Assembly: GCF_001548115.1 (NCBI RefSeq)
Contig: NZ_AP014821.1
Location: 3,351,262 to 3,415,261 of the forward strand
Reading direction: 5' to 3'
DNA length: 64,000 bases
Source: Geminocystis sp. NIES-3709
GTDB taxonomy: Bacteria; Cyanobacteriota; Cyanobacteriia; Cyanobacteriales; Cyanobacteriaceae
Position 1 is the first letter of the stretch, and each line of letters starts with the position of its first letter. Position numbers and translations under genes: made by a program. Below the pieces are notes generated by a model that did no database searches, was not told where the DNA came from, and was given only the letters and a program-made list of their open reading frames with translations. Below are positions 3,200 to 42,800 of this stretch, in pieces.

Positions 3200-3880
3200 A
3201 ACCCTTAGTGGTGCAGAAAAGTCCTGAAAAGTAGATATGGTAATCTTTTCGCTTTTGATAAGGTCTTGTCAGTAGAAGTGGATTTTTGAGATAATTTTTT
3301 TGTCTATATTTCATCATTATTTCTCATGAACACACTTCTACCTTATCTTCAACTTATACAACATTTTAGCCAATACATTCAACCCAAAGATAAGCGACAT
3401 CTCATTGTTTTTGGAGAGATTGTCAGTACCATTCTACTTTCGGGCAGTGAAGCGTCTTTCTCATTGGCTACCCTTTTTTTCCCACCGTAATTGTAATGCC
3501 CGTAGTCATATAGCTCGTCTTTCTTATTTTCTTCTTAATCAAAATATTACACCCTCCATTTTTTATCAACCACTACTACAATTTTTCTTCCATCTTGGCA
3601 ATCTCAACCGATAGTTCTTGTTCTCGATACCAGTGTACTCTGGGATCAATTTTATTTGATTGAAGTTTCCTTTGCTTGGGGTGGACGCTCTTTTTGTGTT
3701 GCACAAAAAGTGACCGAACATGGTAGTGCTACTGTTAGTTTTTCTGATTATGTATCGGTGTTAGAAATCGCTCGACAAGCATTACTGGTTAGCTGAGTTT
3801 CTTCGTTATCGAATTGAATTTGAAAAAATTATCGTATTTCAGTAATTATGTTCTATTATTTTTCTGCACCACTAAGGGTT
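3200..3880 (+). mobile_element. Internally deleted IS remnant with perfect 20-bp terminal inverted repeats
   Basis: The left end (3200-3219, AACCCTTAGTGGTGCAGAAA) is the exact reverse complement of the right end (3861-3880). Between them lie pieces of one DDE (IS4-like) transposase: an N-terminus from the ATG at 3326, a frameshift near 3445, a middle region with the first catalytic Asp motif (VLVLDTSVLWDQ, about 3614-3650), then a jump to a C-terminal scrap ending at a TAA at 3843-3845. At about 680 bp it is too short for a full copy. The intact ends mean it could still be moved by a transposase supplied in trans. A related scrap lies at 6971-7373. Confidence 0.75.
3326..3845 (+). pseudogene. 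Transposase remnant (IS4-like DDE), frameshifted and internally deleted
   Basis: Translation starts MNTLLPYLQLIQHFSQY, loses frame after about 40 residues, and continues in another frame with LSHWLPFFSHRNCNARSH. A third segment carries VLVLDTSVLWDQFYL and WGGRSFCVAQKV. The last segment, HYWLAEFLRYRIEFEK, is separated from it by a deletion that removes the rest of the catalytic core. It cannot make an active transposase. Confidence 0.75.
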
Positions 3881-4052
3881 TCGACTAATAAATCACGTTG
3901 CAATAAATTGACAAAGCGTCGGGCAAAAATCTGCTAAAGCGACTTGAAAAAATTCAATTTTATCTCGACTTTGAAAACACTCTGCCTGATAAGATAACAA
4001 AAGGCAAGAGGCAACAGTTAAGAGTTTTAGTAATTTTTAAGAGTTAATAGAA

Positions 4053-26383: not shown

Positions 26384-28120
26384 ATGAATTCTTTCACCTC
26401 TACCAATCAAATATTACCCTCCCCCTATCACTTAGTTAAACAATTAGGAAGTGGCAGTTTTGGCAATGTTTACTTAGTTATTAACAAAACTAACAACACT
26501 CAATGTGTGGTTAAACAACTTCATCTTATCTCCAATCAACCTAGTTTTGTTAGCCATGCGCGCCGCTTATTTCGTCAAGAAGCAGAAATTCTGAGAAAAC
26601 TTACCTATCCGCAAATACCTCATCTTATTGACTATTTTGAAGAGGGAGACGAATTTTACCTTGTAGAAGAATATATCCAAGGTCATACTTTACGACAAGA
26701 ATTAGTTCCCAATCAATCTTGGACAGAAAAGCAAGTTGTGGAATTATTGCAAGATGGATTATCTATCTTAGCTCATATTCATGAACAAGGGATCATTCAC
26801 CGAGACGTTAAACCCGATAATTTTATTCGCCGTCAGTCAGACAATAAGTTGGTATTAATTGATTTTGGAGCAGTTAAAGAGTTTAAAATAGAACAAAGTC
26901 GCCTCATAGATCCAACTGTAGCTATGGGTACTCGTGGTTATATGCCAACCGAACAAGCTAGAGGAAAGCCTTATAAAAACAGTGATATATACGCATTAGG
27001 AGTTATTGGTATCCAAGCCTTAACGGGAAAAAATCCCCTTGAATTAGAAGAAAATGAAGAAGGAGAAATAATTTGGGAATGTCCCGGAATTCATCCCAAT
27101 CTTCGTGCTATTTTAGAAAAAATGACTCGTCATCATTATAAAAATCGTTATCAATGTGCTGAGGTGATTATTCAGGATTTACTAATATATCCACAAAAAG
27201 AAAATCTAAACCTTAATTACCAGGAAAATATCAATAATCCTGCTCTTAATTCAACAGAAGTTATTACTTCGGCTACGGCAATTCATTCCGTTACAGAGTC
27301 TTTTACCTCTTCTTCTATCTCAAATACCTCTAATTCTGCTGGTAAATGGTTAAAATCTCCATTTGGTGCAACTATTAGTCTCGTTTTAACTATTGCTTTG
27401 GTAACTACTGGGGGGATTTATTATTTTAACATACAAGAAAAAGCTCGTCAGGAAAAGGCACAAGAAGATTTAATTGCGTCATTGACACAAAAATATCAAA
27501 GTCAGTCTTATCAAGAATGTTTTGAAGAAATAGAGACTAAAAATAGGGAAAATGATCCTAGTATCACTCCTAAAGCCTTAGAATATATTGGACTATGTCG
27601 TTTATCTGAAGCAAAAAATCAAGGAAATTTGTTGAACTACGCTTCTGCTTTAGAAATTATTGCTAAAATTCCGAAAAATGATCCTAATTATAGTGAAAGT
27701 CAAATATTGATCGAAAACTGGAGTACAAAAGTTTATACCAAAGCAGAAAGTTTATATAAGGAAAAAGGAAAATTAGAAGAAGCCTTAACAGAAATTAATA
27801 ATTTACCTCAAGGAAATATAAGAGAAACAGCTTTAGTTAATGCGGAAAAATGGAAAGAAGAATATCAAATTAATAATCCAATACTTTTACAAGCAGAAAA
27901 AGATTTGGAATATAATAATTGTACCGATGCAATTCAAACAGTTAGCCAGATTTATGGTTCTAATTATTGGCTATTACAAGGAAAAAAAATTGTCGATCGA
28001 GCGCGAAAATGTTTAGAAAATTCGAATAAAAATACTAACAATAATTCTAGCACAGATCCCATCACACCACAAAATGGAGTGATACCTCTTTGCCCCGGTA
28101 TTTTGTGTCCTGACAATTAA
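26384..28120 (+). CDS. Membrane-anchored Ser/Thr protein kinase with extracytoplasmic tail
   Basis: A 578-residue bacterial PknB-like (Hanks-type) kinase. The kinase domain (about 15-270) has the glycine loop GSGSFG (22-27), K44 in VVKQL, catalytic HRDVKPDN with D141, and DFG with D160. A Ser/Thr-rich linker leads to one membrane helix (about 328-347). The outer part (350-578) is helical and TPR-like, then ends with a low-complexity segment and LCPGILCPDN. The same C-terminal CPxILC motif ends the preceding COP23 protein. Its stop is 3 bp from the convergent protease gene. The substrate is not evident. Confidence 0.9.
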   Translation: MNSFTSTNQILPSPYHLVKQLGSGSFGNVYLVINKTNNTQCVVKQLHLISNQPSFVSHARRLFRQEAEILRKLTYPQIPHLIDYFEEGDEFYLVEEYIQGHTLRQELVPNQSWTEKQVVELLQDGLSILAHIHEQGIIHRDVKPDNFIRRQSDNKLVLIDFGAVKEFKIEQSRLIDPTVAMGTRGYMPTEQARGKPYKNSDIYALGVIGIQALTGKNPLELEENEEGEIIWECPGIHPNLRAILEKMTRHHYKNRYQCAEVIIQDLLIYPQKENLNLNYQENINNPALNSTEVITSATAIHSVTESFTSSSISNTSNSAGKWLKSPFGATISLVLTIALVTTGGIYYFNIQEKARQEKAQEDLIASLTQKYQSQSYQECFEEIETKNRENDPSITPKALEYIGLCRLSEAKNQGNLLNYASALEIIAKIPKNDPNYSESQILIENWSTKVYTKAESLYKEKGKLEEALTEINNLPQGNIRETALVNAEKWKEEYQINNPILLQAEKDLEYNNCTDAIQTVSQIYGSNYWLLQGKKIVDRARKCLENSNKNTNNNSSTDPITPQNGVIPLCPGILCPDN

Positions 28121-28123
28121 CTT

Positions 28124-29008
28124 CTAATCGTCTTTGATTTTTTCATTATTTTTAATAAAGTTTTTGATAGATTCTATAGTAATTCCCCAGCTTAATTCAC
28201 TCATTTTTTCTGCTTGTTTTTCATCTATTTTAACCCCATCTTGATAAATATAAGGATTTCCAAAAATAGGATATTTGCCTAAACCATTTATTCCTATTAA
28301 TTCTCCTTTTTGGTTAATAATTGAACCGCCACTCATGCCATTATGAACTAAGTTAGTATATCCCAGTTGATAACCACCAATTAAGGGTTTATTTAAGATC
28401 ATAATTAAGTTACCTTTAGTATAATTTAATTCCTTGGATTGTTCTAAATTTTTTTGGAAAGAAAAGCCCGTAGAAAAAACTATTTGGTTTTCTTTTAAGG
28501 ATTGTTGGCTAACATTAATCATGGGATAATTTTCTTTAGAGGTAAATTTTAGTAACGCTAAATCATTTTCTTGATAGTTGTGATTATTTCTTTTTATTAC
28601 TTCAGCTAAATAGATTTTCCCTTTATAAGTAGCAATACTATAATTGATGTTTTCTTCCTTGACTACATGATTATTAGTAATCACAAAATAGTTATTATCT
28701 TTTTGATAAATTATTACTCCAGAGCCACCGATCGAGCTATTATTATCATCAAAAAATATTCTTACAGTAACTTTTTCTGCGATCAATTTGATTTCATTTT
28801 CCGTAATAGTAGGAGAATTATTAGAAGATGAATTACTACCTAGATTGATTTTAAATCCTGAACTTTGTATTTTTTTATCAATATCTTTAAGTAATAAAAT
28901 TCGACTAAAATGAAAAAATATAGCTATAGCTAAGAATAAAACAATCAAAAACCATGAGTATTTATTTAACTTAAATCTAAAAATAGTTAATAGTAAAATC
29001 ATAGTCAA
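28124..29008 (-). CDS. Membrane-anchored trypsin-like serine protease
   Basis: A 294-residue protein. An N-terminal membrane helix (about 18-38) is followed by a short linker and an S1-type domain with H114 in TNNHVV, D149 in ENDLALLKF and S226 in GMSGGSI. There is no PDZ domain, unlike the Deg protease at 5403-6626. It is convergent with the kinase and divergent from the giant exoprotein gene, 178 bp away. Processing of the secreted proteins encoded next to it is a reasonable but untested idea. Confidence 0.82.
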   Translation of the reverse strand: MTMILLLTIFRFKLNKYSWFLIVLFLAIAIFFHFSRILLLKDIDKKIQSSGFKINLGSNSSSNNSPTITENEIKLIAEKVTVRIFFDDNNSSIGGSGVIIYQKDNNYFVITNNHVVKEENINYSIATYKGKIYLAEVIKRNNHNYQENDLALLKFTSKENYPMINVSQQSLKENQIVFSTGFSFQKNLEQSKELNYTKGNLIMILNKPLIGGYQLGYTNLVHNGMSGGSIINQKGELIGINGLGKYPIFGNPYIYQDGVKIDEKQAEKMSELSWGITIESIKNFIKNNEKIKDD

Positions 29009-29186: not shown

Positions 29187-32100
29187 ATGTTCAGAAAAGC
29201 GAGTTTGTTTGTTGCTATCCTGTCCTTTTTTACCCTTTTGGATTCTCGGTTAACCCAAGCCCAAGAAATTAGTATTGACGGTAATACGGCTACTATTGTA
29301 ACGAAAAATGGCGATCGAATCACCATAGACGGCAACACTCTATCCAGAGACGGAAAAAACCTTTTTCATAGCTTCAAAGAATTTGGTTTAACCCAACAAC
29401 AAATAGCGACTTTTCTGACAAATCCTAACATTCAAAACATTTTAACAAGGGTGACAGGAGGCAATCCTTCCTATATCAACGGCTTAATTCAAGTGGTGGG
29501 CGGTAATAGTAACCTTTTCTTGATGAATCCCGCAGGTATTGTTTTTGGTTCAGGGGCTAGTATAAATGTTCCTGCGGATTTTACAGCAACCACAGCAACG
29601 GGTATCGGCTTTAATAACGGCATTCTTAACGCCATCGGCAGTAACGACTATCAAAACTTAACAGGCAATCCCACTAACTTTGTTTTTAATACCAATCAAC
29701 CGGGTAGCATCATCAATGCTGGAGAGTTGAAAGTTGCCCAAGGAAGTAACATAAATCTCGTTGGTGGCAATGTGATTAATACAGGCACGATCGAGACTCC
29801 CAACGGAAATATCAACATACAAGCGGTGGCAGGGACATCTAGGGTAAAAATAACTCCCGAAGGCAGTTTGTTGAGCTTAGAGATAGAAATACCAACGGAT
29901 GAGAAAGGAAATTTACTAGGGTTCACCCCTCAAGATTTGCCTACCTTACTCACTGGAGCGAATAACACCGGGGTAGGCACTCCCAATGTCACAGTCAATA
30001 ACAATCAAGTGCAAGTAGCTAATACCAATATACCTAATGAAACAGGTGTTTCCATCGTCTCTGGTAAAATCAGCACCTCATCCGAAACATTAGCAGGGGA
30101 AATAACAGTATTAGGTAATAAAGTAGGAGTGATTGACGGCGAAATCGAGGCAAATGGGGAGAATGGAGGAGGGAAAGTGTTAATAGGCGGAGATAGGGAA
30201 GGAAAAGGCACAATTCCCAACGCAGAAGTTACTTATATCAGTCCAGACTCCAAAATTTCTGCTGATGCGATCGTTAATGGTGATGGTGGAGAAGTAATCG
30301 TTTTTGCAGAAAATCATAGTAGTATTCACGGGGAGTTAACCGCTAAAGGGGGGAATATATCGGGTGATGGTGGATTTATCGAAACCAGTGGGAAAACCTC
30401 TTTTAATATAACTAGCGTACCTGATGCCAGTGCCATCAATGGTCAAGCCGGGGAATGGTTAATTGATCCCTATAATATTGATATTGTAGATGGTGCGACT
30501 AATATTGGTTTTGATCCTCTCAATCCTTTTACTGCCTTTGCTGATAATGCCCAATTGGGAGTAGATGTAATTCGATCGGGCTTATTGTTATCAGATGTTA
30601 CTATATCCACAGGCACAACGGGAACTCAAGAGGGTAATATTACATGGGATTCCTTAGCTAACCTTGACTATGAAGGTATCGGTACAGGTAAAATTCTAAG
30701 TCTGCGTGCGGCTAGAAATATTCGTTATGAAGGCACAATCCAAGATTCTAATACCTCAACCCTAGATTCTCTCAAAGTTGTTTTTAACTCGAATGTCGAT
30801 GGAAATGGTGGGGCGATCGCCCTTTTGAGTGGTTCTTCTATTAGTACCAATGGAGGAGATATAATTCTCGGCGGTGGTGCCAATCCCTTAATAACCCCAG
30901 CAGTAGGCACATCAGATCTTATTTTTCCAGAAGTTCCCGATTCAACCTCGATCTTTAAAACAGGAGTGGATATAAGAGGTACATTGAGTGCAGGAGGAGG
31001 AAATATTAATATACTCGGACAAGGGTTATCATCTTCAACTGAAGCACTTAATGATGGTATTTCCATTAGTTCTAGCCAAATTACCACCATCGGCAATGGT
31101 AATATTATCATGGAAGGCACGGGTGGAAGTGGTAGCGGTGCAAGTACGGTAACAGGAGATAGTTTTGATCGTGGTATTAATATTTCAAATAGTAGTATTA
31201 CCACAGAAGGTGGCAGTATCAGCTTAAGAGGAGTGGGGGGTTTAGGAGATGGAAACTCTAATCATGGTATCAGTATTTTAGAGGGCAACATTTCCAGTAC
31301 CTTAGGCGGTTCAATCGGTTTAGAAGGAGTAGCGACAACAGGTTCAGGTATTGACATTGGTTCATTCCGTAACATTTTGATTTCCACTGCCAACAATGGT
31401 TCAATTAACCTATCGGGAACATCAGAAACCACTTATGGCATATACATTAGCGATCCCATACAAAACGATATTTTTGAAACGCGCTTATCTTCCAGTGGTT
31501 CTCTTAATATAGCAGGATTTACCAATTCGATCGATGCCTTTGGTGTTGCCTTACAAGGAAACAAAACAATTATTGAATCATCTCAAAACCTTACCATTAA
31601 TGCCCAAGGGGGAATAACTGACTTTCCTTTATTAGTGGATGACCAACCGCAAATTATTGTTTCTAATTCCACTACTCTTAACTCCTTCAATCTTGTCAGT
31701 GATAGTACAACCCCTGCAGTTATTTCCTTAACAGGGGAGAATGATTTTAATACTGTTACCGTTATCAATGGTCAAGATACTGCCTTAACAGACATCAATG
31801 ACATTATTGTAGGCATCATAAACAATACAGAAAGTCTTGATGTAAGAGCAGAAGGAAATATTACCACAACAGGGAGTATAACCTTAGATGGTGGTGATGT
31901 TGATTTAAGGGCTGGAGGTAATATAAATGTTAGCGATATATTTACAGAAGGAAATAATAAGGACTCAGGAGATATTACCCTCGATGCAGGAGGAATTATT
32001 AATTCTACGGGTAGTTTTAGTTTTTCTGCCGCTAATTTTACGACGGGAGATGGAGGTAATGTTACCTTAACTTCTGGTGGTGATCTCTTTCTTGATGCAG

Positions 32101-35100
32101 GTGTAAATACTTCTTCTACCACAGGAAATGGTGGTAATATTTCTCTTACTTCCACTTTAGGATCAGTTAATACTCAGGGTACAAACATCAATGGAAATCG
32201 TTTAGATGCTAGTGGAGACAATAATGGTGGGAATATTAGTATTACGGCCGCACAAAATATTGCAACTGATGATTTAAGAATTGACGGCAATTTGGGTTCA
32301 GGTGGTTCGATCGATCTTGATGCCGGTGGAGACGTTGATATTCGTCCAAGTAATCAAATTTTCTTTGGTTCCAATTCTGGTGCTTCTAGTGGTAATTTTA
32401 CCATTAACTCTTCTGGAATAGTCTCTTTATCAGGTACGATTACTAATAATGGTGCGAACTTTACGATCGGAAATAACACTACACCCGAACAAATAACTAA
32501 TAGTGATTTTGTTGGTTTTAACACTTTGGGAGGTGATTTAGATTTTCACGCTCACAGTATTAATTTTACCAGTGCAGAGATTAATTCCGATGGCGGTAAT
32601 ATAACTTTTAGTGCTGAGGGAAATATTACCACTCCCAATATTGATACCAGTGGAGTAACCGTACAAACTGGCGGAAATGTGACGATCGAAACTAATACTG
32701 GCAACATTGTAACAGGAGATATAAAGACTCAAGCTGTCAATTTAGGAGATAATAACGGAGAAGGCGGTAGTATTAGTTTAAATGCCCTAACGGGAAGTAT
32801 TGCCAGTGGAAACTTAGATGCTTTTGATCCTGGACTTGACTCTAATGCCAACATTACCTTAGATGCAGGAACAACGATCAATACAGAAAGTATCGCATTG
32901 GGTGCAAGTAATAACAACGGTAGTGGAACTCTGACAATCGAAACTCCCTCTGTCTTAACTATTAATGGAGCAATAAATAGCAATGGTGCAGATGTTTTTA
33001 TCGGTACTGAAACACCTAGCGAAGTTGTCATCAATGGAAGTGTAATCAGTAATGGTGGAGATTTGACTATCAATAGTTTAGGATTGGTAAGAATAAATGA
33101 TCCTCTTGATGGTACTCCTAGTATTTCTAGTGGTGATGGCAATATTGTTATCAATCATGGGGGAGGAGACTTAAATCCTCGTGTACCTTTTGTGGTAGGA
33201 GACTCTACTATCAACGGTACCACTGAAAACATCGTTACTGCCATAGAATCTATTAATACTACCCAAACTTTTTCTAATAGTTTTGCAACTCCTGATAGTA
33301 CGATCGAAATTAATACTACCAATGCACCCGTCGCCAATTCACCAATTATTGCTGCCACTTTAGATATAGATAACGATGCCACAGGCTCGATCGTATCTTC
33401 TAGCGATGGGTTATTAATAGATATTAAGGGGGGTACTCTTTCTAGTAACGGTAGTAACCTATTCCACAGCTTCACTCACTTTGATTTACTTTCTTCCGAA
33501 CAAACTGCGAATTTTATTACCGAAACATCAGGAATTAATAACATTTTAGCTCGTATTATTAGTGGTAATCCCTCGATTATTAATGGTACAGTTCAAGTCA
33601 GTGGTTTAAGTAATCCAAATCTTTACTTAATGAATCCGGCAGGTATTGTTTTTGGACAAAGTGCCACTATTAATGTACCTTCAGACTTTATCGTAACCAC
33701 TGCCACAGGTATCGGTTTTGGTGATAACTGGTTTAGTGCTAACGGAGATTATAGTGCCAATTTACTTAATACAGATCCTACTACTTTAGCCTTTACTGCC
33801 ACAGAATCAGGGGCAATTATTAACGCATCGAACCTCAATAATGATAACGGGGATGTGAGTTTATTAGCTGGTACTCAAATTAACACTGAGAATATCAGTA
33901 ATAGTGGTGACATAAAATTAACAGCAATTCAAGGGCAAAACATTCTCGACTTAGGTACCTTTGCCTTAACTCCTGCTTCGGAAAGTGCTACCTTACCCAA
34001 TACTTTTACCCCTTCAATTCCTACTTTAGATAATCTCGTTACCACAGCTTTAAGTGCAGGTACAGGAAATTTAGGAGTTAGTATTTTAGGTACTAATTCT
34101 CTGCAAGTTGATAGCACGGGAGTAACTGTAGGTTTAGGAGACGTATCAAGTCAAGCCATTAATGCAAGTAACACGAGTATCTTGGCAAATCGTAACGTTA
34201 CTTTAGGGACTTTTGGAGATAGTCTTGACAGTAACAGTAGTTCTCTTAATGTTAATGCTAATGGACAATTGCAATTATTAGGAACGATCGAACCTCAAGG
34301 CGGTGATATTGCTATTGCAGGAGTGAGTAACTTTATTTCTCCGAATAATATCAATACAGGAGGAGGTAACTTTAATCTTGATACTTCTAGCGATTTTACC
34401 CTTGACGTTGCCATGTTTACTGAGAGGGGTAACTTTACTCTCAATAGTTTAGGAAATGTGGACATCAATAGTGGTATCGATACGGATGGAGGTAATATAG
34501 CCGTAACAGGAAATTCGATTAGTAGTTCATCTGTTGTAATTGTACCTTTTGATACCAGCAGTTTAACAGGTACTGGTGGCAATATAACTCTTACCAGTAA
34601 TAGTGGGGATATAAATGTAGGTAATCTACTCTCTAATTCTTCCACAGCAAATGGTGGGAATGTTAATATTAATGCTTCTTTAGGGAATATTATTACTCAA
34701 AATATTAATAGTTCTGGTGACTTAAAAGGTGGTAATGTTACGATCGAAAGTCCACAAGGTTCAATTCAAACAAGTCTCATTGATTCTAATGCTCCTCAAG
34801 GTGAAGGTGGGAATATTAATTTAACCGCACAGACAAATATTGCCACTGAGGATTTATTAGGTGAGGGTGATTTTGGTTTAGGAGGAGGAGATGTTATCAT
34901 TACCAGTAATAATGGTTCTATTACCATAGACGCGATCGATACAAGTAGTAGCAATAGTGATGCGGGGGAAGTGCAGATTAATTCTTTCGGCAATATTCGA
35001 ACTCAAGTAATTGATACGACATCTTATTCTGGTAACGGTGAATCTAATCCTGTGGTGGGAGATGCAGGAAATATAAATATTGTAAGTGAACAAGGTTCAA

Positions 35101-38100
35101 TCTCTGTGGATGGAGATATTTTTGCTGGGTCTATAAATCCTAATCGTTTAGATATAAATAAGGGTAAAGGTGGTAATGTTTTTATTTCAACTCAAAATGG
35201 AGATATTACGACTCAAAATATTGTTACTGAATCTCGCTTTGATTTAGCCGGCGAAATTAACCTTAATACAAATATTGGTTCTATTAATACAGGCACTTTA
35301 ACGACAAGAGGATTTATTAATAATGATGTTAATATAAGTGCTTCTAATACGATCATTTCAGGTACTATCAATACCAATAATTTGAATTTGAATGCGACAG
35401 GAAATCTTGATTTAAGCACATTAAACATCATCAATGATTTAAGTATTAAGACAACTGGAAATGTAAATGGAACAAATGCCATTAATGTGGGAGGCAATAC
35501 ATTTTTAACGGGAAATGATATTACTCTCGATAATATCGGAAATGATTTTAATACTGTCAGTGTGGTTAATGGTCAAAATGTTACTTTATATGATACTAAT
35601 GATATTGACTTAGGCAACACTAACGTCACCGATAATTTAGAGATAGTCATAGGCAACGCTACTTTAGGAGGAGCAATTACCGATATTGGCACGATAATTG
35701 TCGGAGGAGTTACCACTTTAAATCCGAATAATGCGGATGTGATTCTCGATAGTATCGGAAATGATTTTAATATTGTTTCGGTGAATAATGCTAATAACGT
35801 TATCCTTACCGATATTAACGATTTAACTTTGTTCAACGTCGATACATTGGGAAATCCTCTTGATATTATGGTAGGTGATTTGAATCTTCAAGTAACAGGG
35901 ATTACTACCATTAATAGTAATATTCAAGCTGATAGTATTCTCACCGATAGTAGTGGCTCAACAATTATTAATGCAGATACGATCGCTACTAATTTAGATC
36001 AAACCTACAATGATTCGGTTATCTTAGCAAGAGACACAGAAATAAGGGGGGCAAATATTACTTTTAACAATTCCATAGATTCTCAAACAACCCCTCAAAG
36101 TTTGACAGTGACAGCAGATACTAACATCAATTATGGTGACGGTAGTGGGGACGATCGAATTGGTGCTAACATTGGCTTAAATAATTTTGAAAGTACCGCC
36201 TTAGATATATTTTTAAATATCGATCGAAATGGATTATCCACAGAACAAGCTAGTATTCGCACAATCGGTAATCAAACTTACAATATCATCACTACAGATG
36301 TGGGAGTACTTGCCGATACTCTTTATTTAGCAAAAGATACCGTCATTGATACCAATGATTTTACCCTAGACGGTAGTATTAGAGTTGATGATTCGATCGC
36401 CATAAATGGAGTTTCTTTGACGATTAATGCTCAGGGGAACGTTAGTGTTACTACCAACAATACAGGGTTGACTACAGCAACATCTATTGATACGGCTTTA
36501 GGAAATCAAGGAGGCAATATCACAATTACGGCTGGAGGAGATATAGATATTGATGGAGTCATAAACACGAGTGCATTAAGTCCCACTTCTTTCGTTCCCA
36601 ATGGTGGTAATGTTTCCATAAGTGGTAATGGTATTGTCGCATTAGGTTCGATCGGTACTTTAGGTACTGCCCAGTCTGGCACGATCGACATACAGGGTGA
36701 AAATATCGTTTTAGGTACAATAATTAGTAGCCTACCGAATTTTGGCATAGTGGGAAATGGCGGTACTATCAATATAGATGGGACAAATACTCTAGTCTTA
36801 GGAGAAATTCAAGGAGAATCTTTAACCGTATCAGGTAATTTATTGTTAAGTAACTTTACCGTCTTAAATATCCCTATTCCCCCAGACATTCCATTTTTTG
36901 CCACGTCCAATATTACAACTACCCAAGATCAAGTTTATAATGGTGCAGTTTTCAGCGATGATAACGTTACTTTTACTGGCAGAAATATTAGTTTGAATGA
37001 TGGTGTAGATTCTTTCGATTTAAACATTAATACCAGTGACATCGATAATATTCCTCCCTCAGAGATTCCTAATATTATTCTCGATAGCATTCAAAATCGT
37101 CAAAATGCAACTCCTAATGACGTTACTATAACCGCTAGTAATAACATTCAATTGGGAGATGGTATCGGAGACGATCGTTTTGGGAGTGTAGCAGGTTTAG
37201 CAAGTCTTTCCGCTACTGGACAAACGAATATTAACATTAACGGTACGGGAAATAGTATTAACACCACAGGGAATCAAATCTATAATAACTCAGTATTATT
37301 ACAAGCTGATACTATTTTTAATGGGGTAAATATTTCCTTCAATGGCACTGTAAATGGAAACAATGACTTAACAGTTAATACCAATAATAACGGTATAACA
37401 ACTTTTAACACCATAGTAGGAGACACAAATCCTTTAAGTCGCCTTACCACTAACGCCGATGGCTTAACAATTTTAAATGGTAGTGTAATCACTTCAGGAA
37501 TTCAAAATTATCTTGATAATGTAGAAATAGGTAATCCTATCACTCTAACAACAAACAATAGTAATATTATCTTCGGGGGTACGATTAACAGTGAGTCGGG
37601 AGAAAATAATGACTTCTCCATCATTGGTGGTACAGGAAATATAACCCTTAATCAAGCCCTTGGCACGAGTCAAAGTCTAGGAAATATTAGCTTCAATACG
37701 AGTGGATATACAACTTTAAATAATATCACCGCTAATGGTTTAATCACCAATCCCGAAGGAAAAACTATCTTAAATGGTGATGTTACGACAACGGGTGTTC
37801 AAAACTATCAAGATAATGTAAAAATAGGCAATCCTATTACTATAACTAGCACTGATAGTAATATTACTTTTGACGCTTCCGTAAATAGTCAAACGGGCGA
37901 AACGAATAACCTCACCCTTGATAGTGGTACGGGAAATATAACCTTCAACCAAGTTATTGGTAATACTCAGGCATTAAACAACATTATTGCTAATAGTAGT
38001 GGAGAAACTACTTTTAATAGAGTGAATGCCAATAGTTTAACAACCAATGCAGGAGGTACAACCCGATTAAATAGTAATGTCACAACTACGAATAGTCAAA

Positions 38101-40973
38101 ACTATGAGGATAATGTAGAAATTGGGAATACTACTATTTTGCGTAGTACTCAAAGTGAGATCAATTTCGGTGCAGATGTTAATACTGCGTCTAATAATTT
38201 AACAATTAGAAGTTTAACAGGAGTTAATTTTTCTAGTAGTGGTGTTGTTTCTTCCGAAGGTAGTAATTTATTCTTGACAACGATCGATTCTAATGGCAAT
38301 ATTTTGGTTGGTAATGGCGAAAATAACCAATTTGTCATAACTAATCTCGATCGAGTCAATGGATTTAATAATATTACCATCGGTGAAATTATATCTTCCG
38401 AAGCTGGAGAAAGTATTATTACTCGTAGTATAACAATCAATGAGGATTTGACGGTAAATGATCCTTTGAGGCTTCAAGCTAGTAATATTTTTGTTAATAA
38501 CACCATCAACGGCAATGATAATGCTTCTATTACCATACTAGGAGAAAAAACAACTACAACCCTGAACGCTGATATTATAACTCAAGGCAATGATATAACG
38601 ATCGATGATAATATCATCTTAGGTTCAAATGTGACTCTTGCCACTAATAGTGAAAATGGTGAAGGGGGAAATATTGAAATTTTAGGTACGATCGAAGGTA
38701 ATCAGAATTTGATTCTTAATGCAGGAAATAGTAGTGTTTCTTTGACGGATAATATTGGGGATAATGAGGCTTTAAATAATTTATCCATTACTGCTAACAA
38801 TATAGACTTTAATGGTGGTTCTATTTCTACTAATGGTAATCAAAACTTTAATGGTGATCTGACATTAGCACAAAATACTGTTTTCAATGTAGGTAGTGTA
38901 TTTTTCGGTCAAGATATTTCCGCTAACAATACTGATGTTAATATTGTAGCTCGACGTATTGCCACGGATAATATCATTACTAGAGGGGGTAATATTTCTC
39001 TTACCAGTAATATTCTCGGTGTTGCAACTCAAAATCTTGATACTTCTGGTGGCTCGATCGATATTAACTCCAATACAACTATCAATAGTGGAGAGATTAA
39101 AACCGCAAGAAATCGTGGAAATGGTGGTAATATTACCCTTACAGCAAATAATGATATTGAAGTTAGTACTATAAACACCAGTAGTAATAATGGGCAAGGG
39201 GGAGATGTAAATATTAGTACTTTAGGACGTTTAAGAGTTACGGACACGATCGAAAATACAAATATTAGTATTGATGCTACTGGAACTACTGGCGGGGGAG
39301 CGATTACGATCGACTTTTTCCCTGATAATTCCCAAGCAGGAAAAACAGAAGATCCTCGTTTACCCTTTATTGTTGGTGATCCTAGCAGTAACGGTACGGA
39401 AGGAATAATTACTAACGGGGAATTTTTTATCAGTCCTGATGAATATTTTGAGGTTGTTCAAGAGGGAAATATTGATGTTATCCTTTTAGATCCTCAACCT
39501 GTTGATCCTGTTGATCCTGTTGATCCTGTCGAGCCTGTTGATCCTGTTGAACCCGTTGAACCTGTTGATCCCAGATTGGAAAAACTCGATCAATTGATTG
39601 AAGATGGTGATACAAGTAATTCTGTTGAACCTCCACCAGAAACCCCCCCCCAAATAGCTACTGTTCTTCCTCCTGTACTACCGATTTCAACCGTAGCTCA
39701 AGGACAAGAAATCTTATCATTGATCGAACGAGAATCATCAGAAAAACCAGCATTTATTTATGTTAGTTTTACTCCAAAGGGTTATCAACCTAGAGATCTC
39801 GAACAAGAATTTGCTCGTAGAGAAGTAATTAACACTCAAGAATATAGCCAGATTGATATTAAAAAGCCTAATCTTACACCCAGTATTGCTTTAACACCGG
39901 CGGAAGATGACCAACTTGACTTATTAATTATCACTAATAAAGGGCAACCTGTAAGAGTTACAGTACCTGTCACCAGAGAACAAGTGATAAATTCAGCAAC
40001 TTTTTTATGGTCAAGTACTGCGGATATATTTGCTTTAAATGAGGATTATAAACCTTATGCAACAGAACTATATAGCTGGTTAATTGCCCCGATCGAAGAT
40101 AAATTGAAAGAGCAAGAAATTAGCAATCTCTTATTTATTTTACCTGCTGAAATTCGTTTTATTCCGATCGCAGCTTTATATGACGGAAATAGTAAACAAT
40201 TCCTTGTAGAGAAATATAGCAGTGGTTTAGCACCTAGTCTTAACCTTAACGATAACCGCTATCGTCCTATTAAAGATGTGAACTTGTTGGCTATGGGAGC
40301 ATCACAATTTAGCGATAGTCAAGTAGTACCATTACCTGCGGTTGGTTTAGAGTTACCTACCATCAAAAAAGTATGGAATGATGAATCTCCAGAAGAATAT
40401 CAACGTTATTTGAATGAAAACTTTACATTAGAAGAAATTAAAGCTAATTTAGCTCGAAAACCTTATGGTATAGTTCATTTTGGTACCCATGGAGAATTTA
40501 ACCCCACAGAAACGACAGAGAGTTTCATTCAACTATATAATTCCCGCTTACCTCTAAGTGAAATTAATAATCTTGGCTTAAATCAACCTTTAGTCGAGTT
40601 GATGGTGTTAAGTGCCTGTGAAACTGCTTTTGGGAATGAAATTGCTGAGTTAGGTTTTGCTGGATTGGCAGTACAAGCGGGAGTTAAAACGGCCATGGGG
40701 AGTGTTTGGCAGGTTAGTGATACGGGAACTTTAGCACTGATGACAGATTTTTATGCTCAACTAAAAACTCAAACCACTAAAGCGGAAGCCTTACGTCAAG
40801 CTCAATTAAATATGCTCAATGGTAAGGTTTACAAATCTAGTAACGGCAAAACGATCATCACTCCTCAACTAGAGGTATCTTTAGAAGAATTACCAGAAAA
40901 TTCTCAACAACCGGAAAACTTTTCTCATCCTTTTTACTGGGCACCTTTTACGATGATTGGTAATCCTTGGTAA
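29187..40973 (+). CDS. Giant two-partner-secretion exoprotein with two TPS domains and C-terminal CHAT protease
   Basis: A 3,928-residue secreted protein. Signal peptide (1-26, ending LTQAQ); haemagglutinin-type TPS domain (about 27-245) with LFLMNPAGIVFG; a GFIETSGK / GEWLIDPYNIDI segment (about 395-430) typical of cyanobacterial members. A second, internal TPS-like domain (about 1390-1580) has its own NPAGIVFG at 1483-1490. Long Asn/Gly/Thr-rich beta-helix repeats follow, including 99-residue units. Then an acidic VDP/VEP repeat linker (nt 39492-39573) and a CHAT caspase-like domain with H3768 in FGTHGEF and C3811 in LSACETA. Secretion is expected through the TpsB encoded next. Antisense ORFs within are shadows. 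Confidence 0.93.
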   Translation: MFRKASLFVAILSFFTLLDSRLTQAQEISIDGNTATIVTKNGDRITIDGNTLSRDGKNLFHSFKEFGLTQQQIATFLTNPNIQNILTRVTGGNPSYINGLIQVVGGNSNLFLMNPAGIVFGSGASINVPADFTATTATGIGFNNGILNAIGSNDYQNLTGNPTNFVFNTNQPGSIINAGELKVAQGSNINLVGGNVINTGTIETPNGNINIQAVAGTSRVKITPEGSLLSLEIEIPTDEKGNLLGFTPQDLPTLLTGANNTGVGTPNVTVNNNQVQVANTNIPNETGVSIVSGKISTSSETLAGEITVLGNKVGVIDGEIEANGENGGGKVLIGGDREGKGTIPNAEVTYISPDSKISADAIVNGDGGEVIVFAENHSSIHGELTAKGGNISGDGGFIETSGKTSFNITSVPDASAINGQAGEWLIDPYNIDIVDGATNIGFDPLNPFTAFADNAQLGVDVIRSGLLLSDVTISTGTTGTQEGNITWDSLANLDYEGIGTGKILSLRAARNIRYEGTIQDSNTSTLDSLKVVFNSNVDGNGGAIALLSGSSISTNGGDIILGGGANPLITPAVGTSDLIFPEVPDSTSIFKTGVDIRGTLSAGGGNINILGQGLSSSTEALNDGISISSSQITTIGNGNIIMEGTGGSGSGASTVTGDSFDRGINISNSSITTEGGSISLRGVGGLGDGNSNHGISILEGNISSTLGGSIGLEGVATTGSGIDIGSFRNILISTANNGSINLSGTSETTYGIYISDPIQNDIFETRLSSSGSLNIAGFTNSIDAFGVALQGNKTIIESSQNLTINAQGGITDFPLLVDDQPQIIVSNSTTLNSFNLVSDSTTPAVISLTGENDFNTVTVINGQDTALTDINDIIVGIINNTESLDVRAEGNITTTGSITLDGGDVDLRAGGNINVSDIFTEGNNKDSGDITLDAGGIINSTGSFSFSAANFTTGDGGNVTLTSGGDLFLDAGVNTSSTTGNGGNISLTSTLGSVNTQGTNINGNRLDASGDNNGGNISITAAQNIATDDLRIDGNLGSGGSIDLDAGGDVDIRPSNQIFFGSNSGASSGNFTINSSGIVSLSGTITNNGANFTIGNNTTPEQITNSDFVGFNTLGGDLDFHAHSINFTSAEINSDGGNITFSAEGNITTPNIDTSGVTVQTGGNVTIETNTGNIVTGDIKTQAVNLGDNNGEGGSISLNALTGSIASGNLDAFDPGLDSNANITLDAGTTINTESIALGASNNNGSGTLTIETPSVLTINGAINSNGADVFIGTETPSEVVINGSVISNGGDLTINSLGLVRINDPLDGTPSISSGDGNIVINHGGGDLNPRVPFVVGDSTINGTTENIVTAIESINTTQTFSNSFATPDSTIEINTTNAPVANSPIIAATLDIDNDATGSIVSSSDGLLIDIKGGTLSSNGSNLFHSFTHFDLLSSEQTANFITETSGINNILARIISGNPSIINGTVQVSGLSNPNLYLMNPAGIVFGQSATINVPSDFIVTTATGIGFGDNWFSANGDYSANLLNTDPTTLAFTATESGAIINASNLNNDNGDVSLLAGTQINTENISNSGDIKLTAIQGQNILDLGTFALTPASESATLPNTFTPSIPTLDNLVTTALSAGTGNLGVSILGTNSLQVDSTGVTVGLGDVSSQAINASNTSILANRNVTLGTFGDSLDSNSSSLNVNANGQLQLLGTIEPQGGDIAIAGVSNFISPNNINTGGGNFNLDTSSDFTLDVAMFTERGNFTLNSLGNVDINSGIDTDGGNIAVTGNSISSSSVVIVPFDTSSLTGTGGNITLTSNSGDINVGNLLSNSSTANGGNVNINASLGNIITQNINSSGDLKGGNVTIESPQGSIQTSLIDSNAPQGEGGNINLTAQTNIATEDLLGEGDFGLGGGDVIITSNNGSITIDAIDTSSSNSDAGEVQINSFGNIRTQVIDTTSYSGNGESNPVVGDAGNINIVSEQGSISVDGDIFAGSINPNRLDINKGKGGNVFISTQNGDITTQNIVTESRFDLAGEINLNTNIGSINTGTLTTRGFINNDVNISASNTIISGTINTNNLNLNATGNLDLSTLNIINDLSIKTTGNVNGTNAINVGGNTFLTGNDITLDNIGNDFNTVSVVNGQNVTLYDTNDIDLGNTNVTDNLEIVIGNATLGGAITDIGTIIVGGVTTLNPNNADVILDSIGNDFNIVSVNNANNVILTDINDLTLFNVDTLGNPLDIMVGDLNLQVTGITTINSNIQADSILTDSSGSTIINADTIATNLDQTYNDSVILARDTEIRGANITFNNSIDSQTTPQSLTVTADTNINYGDGSGDDRIGANIGLNNFESTALDIFLNIDRNGLSTEQASIRTIGNQTYNIITTDVGVLADTLYLAKDTVIDTNDFTLDGSIRVDDSIAINGVSLTINAQGNVSVTTNNTGLTTATSIDTALGNQGGNITITAGGDIDIDGVINTSALSPTSFVPNGGNVSISGNGIVALGSIGTLGTAQSGTIDIQGENIVLGTIISSLPNFGIVGNGGTINIDGTNTLVLGEIQGESLTVSGNLLLSNFTVLNIPIPPDIPFFATSNITTTQDQVYNGAVFSDDNVTFTGRNISLNDGVDSFDLNINTSDIDNIPPSEIPNIILDSIQNRQNATPNDVTITASNNIQLGDGIGDDRFGSVAGLASLSATGQTNININGTGNSINTTGNQIYNNSVLLQADTIFNGVNISFNGTVNGNNDLTVNTNNNGITTFNTIVGDTNPLSRLTTNADGLTILNGSVITSGIQNYLDNVEIGNPITLTTNNSNIIFGGTINSESGENNDFSIIGGTGNITLNQALGTSQSLGNISFNTSGYTTLNNITANGLITNPEGKTILNGDVTTTGVQNYQDNVKIGNPITITSTDSNITFDASVNSQTGETNNLTLDSGTGNITFNQVIGNTQALNNIIANSSGETTFNRVNANSLTTNAGGTTRLNSNVTTTNSQNYEDNVEIGNTTILRSTQSEINFGADVNTASNNLTIRSLTGVNFSSSGVVSSEGSNLFLTTIDSNGNILVGNGENNQFVITNLDRVNGFNNITIGEIISSEAGESIITRSITINEDLTVNDPLRLQASNIFVNNTINGNDNASITILGEKTTTTLNADIITQGNDITIDDNIILGSNVTLATNSENGEGGNIEILGTIEGNQNLILNAGNSSVSLTDNIGDNEALNNLSITANNIDFNGGSISTNGNQNFNGDLTLAQNTVFNVGSVFFGQDISANNTDVNIVARRIATDNIITRGGNISLTSNILGVATQNLDTSGGSIDINSNTTINSGEIKTARNRGNGGNITLTANNDIEVSTINTSSNNGQGGDVNISTLGRLRVTDTIENTNISIDATGTTGGGAITIDFFPDNSQAGKTEDPRLPFIVGDPSSNGTEGIITNGEFFISPDEYFEVVQEGNIDVILLDPQPVDPVDPVDPVEPVDPVEPVEPVDPRLEKLDQLIEDGDTSNSVEPPPETPPQIATVLPPVLPISTVAQGQEILSLIERESSEKPAFIYVSFTPKGYQPRDLEQEFARREVINTQEYSQIDIKKPNLTPSIALTPAEDDQLDLLIITNKGQPVRVTVPVTREQVINSATFLWSSTADIFALNEDYKPYATELYSWLIAPIEDKLKEQEISNLLFILPAEIRFIPIAALYDGNSKQFLVEKYSSGLAPSLNLNDNRYRPIKDVNLLAMGASQFSDSQVVPLPAVGLELPTIKKVWNDESPEEYQRYLNENFTLEEIKANLARKPYGIVHFGTHGEFNPTETTESFIQLYNSRLPLSEINNLGLNQPLVELMVLSACETAFGNEIAELGFAGLAVQAGVKTAMGSVWQVSDTGTLALMTDFYAQLKTQTTKAEALRQAQLNMLNGKVYKSSNGKTIITPQLEVSLEELPENSQQPENFSHPFYWAPFTMIGNPW
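37480..38160 (+). repeat. 99-residue tandem repeats within the giant exoprotein
   Basis: Three consecutive units carry GIQNYLDNVEIGNP, GVQNYQDNVKIGNP and SQNYEDNVEIGN. The shared CAAAA.TAT stretch starts at 37503, 37800 and 38097, exactly 297 bp apart. More diverged units with the pattern Q-x-Y-(N/x)-x-V occur upstream from about 35995 (DQTYNDSV, NQTYNIIT, DQVYNGAV, NQIYNNSV). The exact period shows recent duplication in the 3' half of the array. Confidence 0.75.
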
Positions 40974-41138
40974 TTTGATTGAATAATTGATAGTTGATAG
41001 TTGCTGTTATTTATTTAAAAATTAAATGGTTTAAAATTTGTTAATTGCATAAAAAAGATACCATAACCTAAAAATATTTTGTTGCAATTTTAAATTTTAT
41101 TATTATAATTTGTTTATTTAAAACCTATATATAAAATC

Positions 41139-42800
41139 ATGACTAACATAAAAATTAACAAGAAATTATCTTTATTTCCTCTGATTTTTCTCTCTTTTTT
41201 TTTGATAAAGATTCCTATATTAGCAGAAGATTTGACATTAATAAATAATAATGAAAATATCAACTCCAATTTATCCAATAAAAATGTTTTAATTAGCCAA
41301 AATAATGGAGAAGAATTTTCTGCAAAAGCTATAGAAGTTAAAGGAAATACTATCTTTAATAATGAAATTAACACTATTACTCAGAATTATCAAAATAAAA
41401 CTATTACGATCGAAACTTTACAAGAAATTGCCAATCAAATTACTCAACTTTATCTCAATCAAGGCTATATAAGTACAAGGGCGATCGTTGAAAATGTTGT
41501 GGATGATATAGCTATTATTCAAGTATATGAAGGACAAATAGAAGCGATCCAGATTGAAGGTGCTAAAAGATTAGAAAATTATGTTCGATCGAGAATAGCA
41601 TTAGGTGCAACAACTCCTCTTAATTCTGGTAATTTAGAAGATCAATTAAGATTATTAAAAGCTGATCCTTTAATTGAAAATATTGAAGCTACATTGAGAG
41701 CCGGCAGTGCAGAAAAACAAAGTATTTTGATCGTCAACGTGACAGAAGCTGATCCCTTTTTTGCCACCATTGGTGTCGATAACTATTCTCCTCCCAGTAT
41801 TGGTGCAACTCAAGTTACTTTAGCCGCCGGTTATGGCAATGTTTTAGGCTTAGGGGATAGTTTCTCTGTGTCTTATCAACCCCGTGTAGAAGATTGGGCT
41901 GGGACTTATAATCTCGATATTAACTATAATATACCTCTTAATCCCATGAATGGCACTTTAAATGCTAGGGTTACGATACAAGAAAATACAGTAGTAGAGG
42001 GAGACTTTCAAGAGTTAGATATTAGTGGCGAAAGTCAATTTTATGAGTTAAGTTATCGTCAACCTTTAATTCGTAGTCCTAGAGAAGAATTAGCTTTATC
42101 TGTGGGTATGAGTTACCGTAATGGTCAAACTTTCACTTTTCAAGGGCCGACTCCTTTCGGTGTAGGACCAAATGAAGATGGTATTACTCGTACCAATGTT
42201 ATTAGTCTTGGTCAAGATTATGTCAAACGAGATAATATGGGTGCTTGGGCATTACGATCGCAATTTCGTATCGGTACAGGCTTGTTTGATGTTACGACTT
42301 CTAATAGTTCAAATGATCCTGATGGTTACTTTTTGGCTTGGTTAGGACAAATTCAACGAGTACAACTATTAAACCCCGATAACTTATTAATTATTCAAGG
42401 AGATATTCAATTAAGTTTAGATCCTTTATTGCCTTCAGAACAATTTGTCATTGGTGGTGGACAATCCGTGAGGGGTTATCGTCAAAATGTCCGAGCAGGA
42501 GATAATGGTTTTCGTTTTTCCATTGAAGATAGAATTACGATCGTTCGTAATGATGAACGTTTTCCAGTGTTTCAAATAGCACCTTTTTTCGACATGGGTT
42601 CGGTATGGAATGCCCAAGGAAATCCTAACTTTTCGTCCAATCAAAGATTTATCGCCGCTTTGGGTTTAGGTTTAATTTGGCAACCTGTGGAAAATCTCAA
42701 TATGAGATTAGACTATGCACCCCCTTTAATTGATTTAGTCGATCGAGGTAACAACATTCAAGACGATGGACTATATTTTAACGTGAAGTATAATTTTTAA
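41139..42800 (+). CDS. TpsB outer-membrane transporter (ShlB/FhaC/HecB family)
   Basis: A 553-residue protein with a signal peptide (about 1-32), an unusual Asn-rich linker, a POTRA domain (about 65-140, FSAKAIEVKGNTIF and YLNQGYISTRAIV) and a second POTRA (to about 205). A 16-strand barrel follows (about 215-553) with the conserved IGGGQSVRGYR and DNGFRFSIEDR near strands 11-13, ending in a terminal Phe (VKYNF). It exports the large protein encoded 165 bp upstream through the outer membrane. The gene order tpsA-tpsB is common. No second TpsA is seen in the window. Confidence 0.93.
   Translation: MTNIKINKKLSLFPLIFLSFFLIKIPILAEDLTLINNNENINSNLSNKNVLISQNNGEEFSAKAIEVKGNTIFNNEINTITQNYQNKTITIETLQEIANQITQLYLNQGYISTRAIVENVVDDIAIIQVYEGQIEAIQIEGAKRLENYVRSRIALGATTPLNSGNLEDQLRLLKADPLIENIEATLRAGSAEKQSILIVNVTEADPFFATIGVDNYSPPSIGATQVTLAAGYGNVLGLGDSFSVSYQPRVEDWAGTYNLDINYNIPLNPMNGTLNARVTIQENTVVEGDFQELDISGESQFYELSYRQPLIRSPREELALSVGMSYRNGQTFTFQGPTPFGVGPNEDGITRTNVISLGQDYVKRDNMGAWALRSQFRIGTGLFDVTTSNSSNDPDGYFLAWLGQIQRVQLLNPDNLLIIQGDIQLSLDPLLPSEQFVIGGGQSVRGYRQNVRAGDNGFRFSIEDRITIVRNDERFPVFQIAPFFDMGSVWNAQGNPNFSSNQRFIAALGLGLIWQPVENLNMRLDYAPPLIDLVDRGNNIQDDGLYFNVKYNF

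Follow-up and report, generated by a model that had tools for sequence, protein, structure and literature searches.

A TpsA-type exoprotein of Geminocystis sp. NIES-3709 with an internal TPS domain and a predicted C-terminal CHAT peptidase

Described two-partner exoproteins and the organization of the locus

TpsA exoproteins usually carry a single N-terminal TPS domain, although this is not strictly defining, and CHAT peptidases include HetF of Anabaena and Csx29/TPR-CHAT of Craspase. TpsA proteins of the FHA, HMW1, and HxuA type share a signal-like start, an N-terminal TPS domain, a long repeat passenger, and a TpsB partner gene with the protein described here, which differs by having an additional, internal TPS domain from a separate lineage and by ending in a CHAT domain. 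In a published review (PMC5422565), LepA-type TpsA is described as carrying a protease, FHA as being released by SphB1, the tail of CdrA as being cut by periplasmic LapG, and TPS domains as possible nuclei of passenger folding. By these descriptions, LepA-type proteins likewise have a protease on TpsA (here a CHAT domain), and FHA/SphB1 and CdrA/LapG tie a TpsA to proteolytic release, whereas the protease of the present protein lies in the same chain. HetF (PMC8406250) and Csx29/TPR-CHAT, also compared by description, have the CHAT domain in common; the CHAT domain examined here ends an exoprotein, and Pfam gave no TPR match in the fused 3,928-aa protein. Literature searches, with most subscription papers outside their reach, found no report on a CHAT domain with two-partner secretion and cyanobacteria or with filamentous hemagglutinin, and the one paper found for a double or internal TPS compares two separate proteins.

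The features of the locus within the 64,000-nucleotide stretch of DNA analyzed (the window) are listed in Table 1. The initial annotation had described a 3,928-residue ORF with a signal peptide followed by a TpsB gene, and both were recovered (the signal-like start by eye). The TpsB protein matched ShlB (E 1.4e-32) and POTRA_2 (E 4.3e-12) in Pfam, and DUF5649 repeats were matched in the giant protein. An N-terminal TPS domain behind a signal-like start, together with an adjacent TpsB containing POTRA and an ShlB barrel, characterizes the protein as a TpsA predicted to be secreted through TpsB. Judging from its position, this TpsB probably serves the 3,928-aa TpsA; a TpsB gene also adjoins the orthologue in several relatives.

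Table 1. Positions of the exoprotein gene, its encoded domains, and the partner gene in the window
Feature	Residues or length	Positions	Strand	Basis or remark
TpsA-type exoprotein gene	3928 aa	29187..40973	+	ATG start; ORF list, Pfam; order: signal-like start, TPS1, passenger 1, TPS2, passenger 2, Pro-rich linker, CHAT
Signal peptide	1-26	29187..29264	+	Read by eye
TPS1, N-terminal TPS domain	32-240	29280..29906	+	PF05860
First passenger-end-like motif, PFVVGDSTINGT	1334-1345	33186..33221	+	Label is our own
TPS2, internal TPS domain	1403-1589	33393..33953	+	Profile search; clade of internal TPS
Second passenger-end-like motif, PFIVGDPSSNGT	3393-3404	39363..39398	+	
Asp/Glu-Pro repeat linker ahead of CHAT	3435-3462	39489..39572	+	
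CHAT caspase-like peptidase domain (predicted)	3623-3926	40053..40964	+	PF12770
Catalytic codon in CHAT	His3768	40488-40490	+	
Catalytic codon in CHAT	Cys3811	40617-40619	+	
TpsB outer-membrane transporter	553 aa	41139..42800	+	165 bases downstream of exoprotein gene

The internal TPS domain

PF05860 matched two stretches of the 3,928-aa ORF (E 5.7e-63), as did NCBIfam adhes_NPXG, and when scored separately in a genome profile search (cut-off 33.5), TPS1 and TPS2 reached 139.7 and 104.2 bits, respectively. Both copies are located in a single open frame without stops, contain NPAGIVFG (residues 114-121 and 1483-1490), and aligned with each other at 39% over 294 columns (E 4e-41). The second TPS domain with a motif of its own, which the initial annotation had proposed, is thus confirmed, and the domain search suggested there returned two TPS domains and a full-length CHAT domain; the usual single N-terminal TPS of TpsA does not apply to this protein (Pfam, genome search). 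Since the gene contains no exact repeat reaching 25 bases, and the internal TPS with the same junction recurs in other genomes, an assembly error or chimera joining two genes, raised earlier as an objection, is unlikely. A recent internal duplication of TPS1 was also rejected: TPS1 shares 93% identity with a genus orthologue, whereas none of the matches listed for TPS2 exceeds 54%, and TPS2 falls in another clade.

The best non-self matches of TPS2 among 388 genomes of the order (no more than six candidates scored per genome) were in G024 and G190. A profile running from the passenger-end-like motif through the linker into TPS2 (A3) was built from four loci (the window, one in G190, and two in G024), and this stretch aligned between the window and the three other loci. 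A3 was run against the 388 genomes of the order plus 27 from the G190 family. Apart from the four loci used for training, which necessarily match, it revealed one new locus, in G155 (276 bits, with the alignment starting at profile position 1); the match ranked after it (242 bits) began at position 48 and some lower ones at positions 10 to 40. In six regions chosen from a similar search, whose other matches included G101, G319, G354, and G376, no second TPS above 50 bits was found (L169 gave a 12-bit trace). The loci of G190 (L124) and G155 (L208) encode intact proteins with two TPS domains and CHAT (Pfam), and both G024 loci are interrupted. TPS1 and TPS2 are separated by 1369 (window), 1392 (L124), and 1527 (L208) residues.

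In a tree of 68 TPS domains, which left out a 44-residue fragment of L208, the five internal copies formed one clade (99/98) with one label change, as had four internal copies in an earlier tree (100/98). The four N-terminal TPS domains of the double proteins needed three changes, and a single clade for them was rejected (p-AU 1e-5). In this analysis the internal copies were long-branched, the bootstrap was unsettled, and the groups had been named after the first tree. Judged by tree and profile, the internal TPS is one lineage, present in the window and at four loci from two further families, at the same junction. As predicted from its domains, the window protein is an extension of two-partner secretion by an internal TPS, in an architecture that occurs in three families and is not private to this strain. 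TPS domains can also exist as a distinct, conserved lineage located within an exoprotein, so that TPS-nucleated passenger folding becomes testable apart from secretion.

The reference set comprised 87 columns, each with a constancy of 90% or more across 63 N-terminal TPS domains. All five internal copies keep 39 of these, including NLFHSF and N-P-x-G (NLFHSF and NPAGIVFG are intact in TPS2), and differ at 13: seven are substituted in all five copies (for example, Gly67 by Asp and Gly91 by Ser), and the remaining six have gaps in some or all of them, the ORF of L125 ending nearby. Because of this pattern of retention and loss, we infer that TPS2 acts as a folding cap or nucleus rather than as a second secretion signal, although it may conceivably bind TpsB, given the amount of motif kept. 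The TPS2 model had a low mean pLDDT of 45.6, and the first 19 PDB rows were all TPS domains, none of them significant; PDB sequence searches gave no significant match either. The structure models of TPS2 and CHAT were too poor to carry an argument.

The CHAT domain and its linkage to TPS domains

PF12770 matched the C-terminal region over profile positions 2-289 of 289 (E 2.2e-61; 208.3 bits vs a gathering score of 24), and the two catalytic residues lie in HFGTHG (residues 3764-3769) and LSACET (residues 3808-3813). The intact dyad previously noted is therefore in place, and the domain is a predicted caspase-like peptidase. The dyad columns are retained in 70 of 71 CHAT sequences; the lone exception is a TPS-CHAT protein (L143, 4104-13958) with both catalytic residues replaced (Arg and Ser). 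The CHAT region shows 58-82% identity to its best matches in the family. The CHAT model had a poor pLDDT (50.6), with ctSPD (separase) ranked 4 and Csx29 ranked 35, neither significant. Self-processing by CHAT, suggested earlier, is possible. A role in anti-phage defense was set aside, being indicated by weak PADLOC matches alone: a partial BovA match in the CHAT region (E 7.8e-6) and a TPR model in the neighbor at the second TpsA locus described below (0.0032).

Forty relatives were searched with the CHAT region and the TPS family (best matches listed), stretches were fetched, and profiles built from the fetched sequences were used to count ORFs with both domains. At least 58 distinct ORFs contained TPS and CHAT, 56 with one TPS and two with two; L208, fetched later, was the third double form, giving 3 of at least 59, and these counts are not unbiased rates, the sequences having been selected for strong matches and large frames. 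The TPS-passenger-CHAT fusion is common, and the double-TPS form is a rare but real variant, intact in L124 and L208; this answers the comparison of homologues with one and two TPS domains that had been proposed at the outset. One of the 56 single-TPS ORFs (L047) has an internal-type TPS behind an interruption. By our own count from labels, the 59 ORFs represent 22 families, including one from outside the order, and their lengths range from 950 to 3935 aa. The genus relatives have one TPS each, in proteins of 1782, 1958, 2859, and 2920 aa, with TpsB just downstream in three of the four. The orthologue in Geminocystis sp. GBBB08 (MAG G003; L068:3110-13654, L088) is split into two overlapping frames. 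A family 2 glycosyltransferase domain precedes the signal-like stretch and TPS in frame in L124:2738-13720 (Pfam, E 1.5e-32), and the same arrangement was seen by eye in the TPS-CHAT ORFs L054:890-7393 and L055:5371-11811.

A motif of the form (P/T)F-x-(V/I/L)-G-(D/N)...NGT occurs at residues 1334 and 3393 of the window protein, a doubling on which the initial annotation had not remarked. The first copy is followed by TPS2, and the second by the Pro-rich linker and CHAT. The name passenger-end-like, which is ours, reflects its location no more than 350 residues ahead of CHAT in 29 of the 59 fused ORFs; with 36 of 59 containing it anywhere, the motif is common, not universal. In L124, as in L208, the pattern finds just one copy instead of two, and the A3 alignment shows a similar motif in L124 and L125. 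The first 436-678 residues of the window protein match genus orthologues at 65-75%, three of which also match the C-terminal stretch, from approximately 2690 or 2950 onward, at 58-61%. For the middle, including TPS2, matches in the genus and family are patchy or weaker, mostly at 37-52%. With a similar motif ahead of TPS2 and again ahead of the CHAT linker, we read the protein as two exoproteins in series, minus the first CHAT and the second signal peptide. The fusion of two exoproteins suspected earlier is thus the natural reading, but not as a private event, the architecture being found in three families.

The distance between TPS and CHAT genes was assessed with 30 TPS frames from 14 genomes picked for few contigs. 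Seventeen were fused to CHAT, and among the other 13, 8 lay within 10 kb and 11 within 20 kb of a CHAT gene; random placement gave a mean of 0.38 within 10 kb and a maximum of 5 in 5000 draws. Two of the eight (L211 and L212) look like split fusions, and G058 has one TPS frame and one TPS fragment without CHAT within 400 kb. Because 25 of the 30 frames are fused to CHAT or no more than 10 kb away, an extracytoplasmic role for these CHAT peptidases is suggested.

A second locus in the same genome (L006:5231-15986) encodes a 1980-aa TpsA, a divergent TpsB, and an 886-aa TPR-CHAT protein with a signal-like start and no TPS domain; a 470-aa CHAT protein is encoded at a third place. The genome has two TpsB genes in all, one of them at the window locus. 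The TpsA of the second locus has two TPS domains side by side (42-207 and 230-377). Seven CHAT proteins of 838-888 aa within approximately 11 kb of a TPS gene, in which TPR is Pfam-confirmed for L006 and the localization cue is hydropathy alone, all have an N-terminal hydropathy of at least 1.97; this is not specific because 7 of the 12 CHAT proteins encoded away from TPS genes reach the same value. Since a CHAT protein with a signal start and no TPS domain should stop in the periplasm, the split version in this genome is a hint that CHAT may be periplasmic. External delivery of the protease, as initially proposed, found no support.

Proposed account and alternatives

We tentatively favor, at a little less than an even chance, a type Vb exoprotein with its own caspase-like protease, in which TPS2 is a cap and CHAT is probably periplasmic. 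TPS1 would engage the POTRA domains of TpsB and lead the chain out, and passenger 1 would fold at the surface as a β-helix. Without renewed recruitment of TpsB, TPS2 would serve as a cap and as the folding nucleus that starts a second β-helix, so that a passenger of approximately 3,400 residues would be assembled from two modules. CHAT, the last part of the chain, would most likely stay in or act from the periplasm, where it may process or release the exoprotein or cut a periplasmic substrate upon exoprotein engagement.

Three other explanations were weighed. TPS2 may be an evolutionary relic of a recombination that fused two TPS-CHAT genes, tolerated as a β-helical segment; the similar motif at both places, the rarity of double forms among the fused ORFs fetched, and the interruption of both G024 loci fit this idea, which we regard as rather unlikely in view of a junction and internal lineage common to three families, beyond expectation for a neutral relic, even though horizontal spread could equally produce such sharing. 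It is unlikely that TPS2 is a second working docking signal that engages TpsB again halfway, with translocation pausing and then restarting: the intact NLFHSF and NPAGIVFG and the retained columns would suit such a role, but the 13 columns are lost in every internal copy, and a single TpsB gene stands at the locus, of two in the genome. An exported CHAT effector acting on neighboring cells in the style of contact-dependent inhibition would explain the position of CHAT at the C-terminal end of a very long TpsA. We consider this highly improbable: a toxin tip would be variable, yet the CHAT region is conserved; CHAT is also encoded by separate neighboring genes that lack a TPS domain; and Pfam detected neither a pre-toxin nor a toxin domain in any of five proteins, with no CdiA-type pre-toxin or variable C-terminal toxin at E 0.001 in the window protein. 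The toxin reading thus has no supporting Pfam domain, and the contact-dependent killing first considered is left unsupported.

Beyond the favored account of a capping TPS2 and a periplasmic CHAT, a broader conjecture, to which we give a small chance, is that cyanobacterial TPS-CHAT systems are outside-in devices, in which a contact-sensing surface filament would fire a periplasmic protease in cis or in trans and TPS2 would represent a new class of TPS domain for restarting folding.

A Ser/Thr kinase gene (26384-28120) and a trypsin-like peptidase gene (28124-29008), both identified by Pfam, are located immediately upstream of the exoprotein gene.
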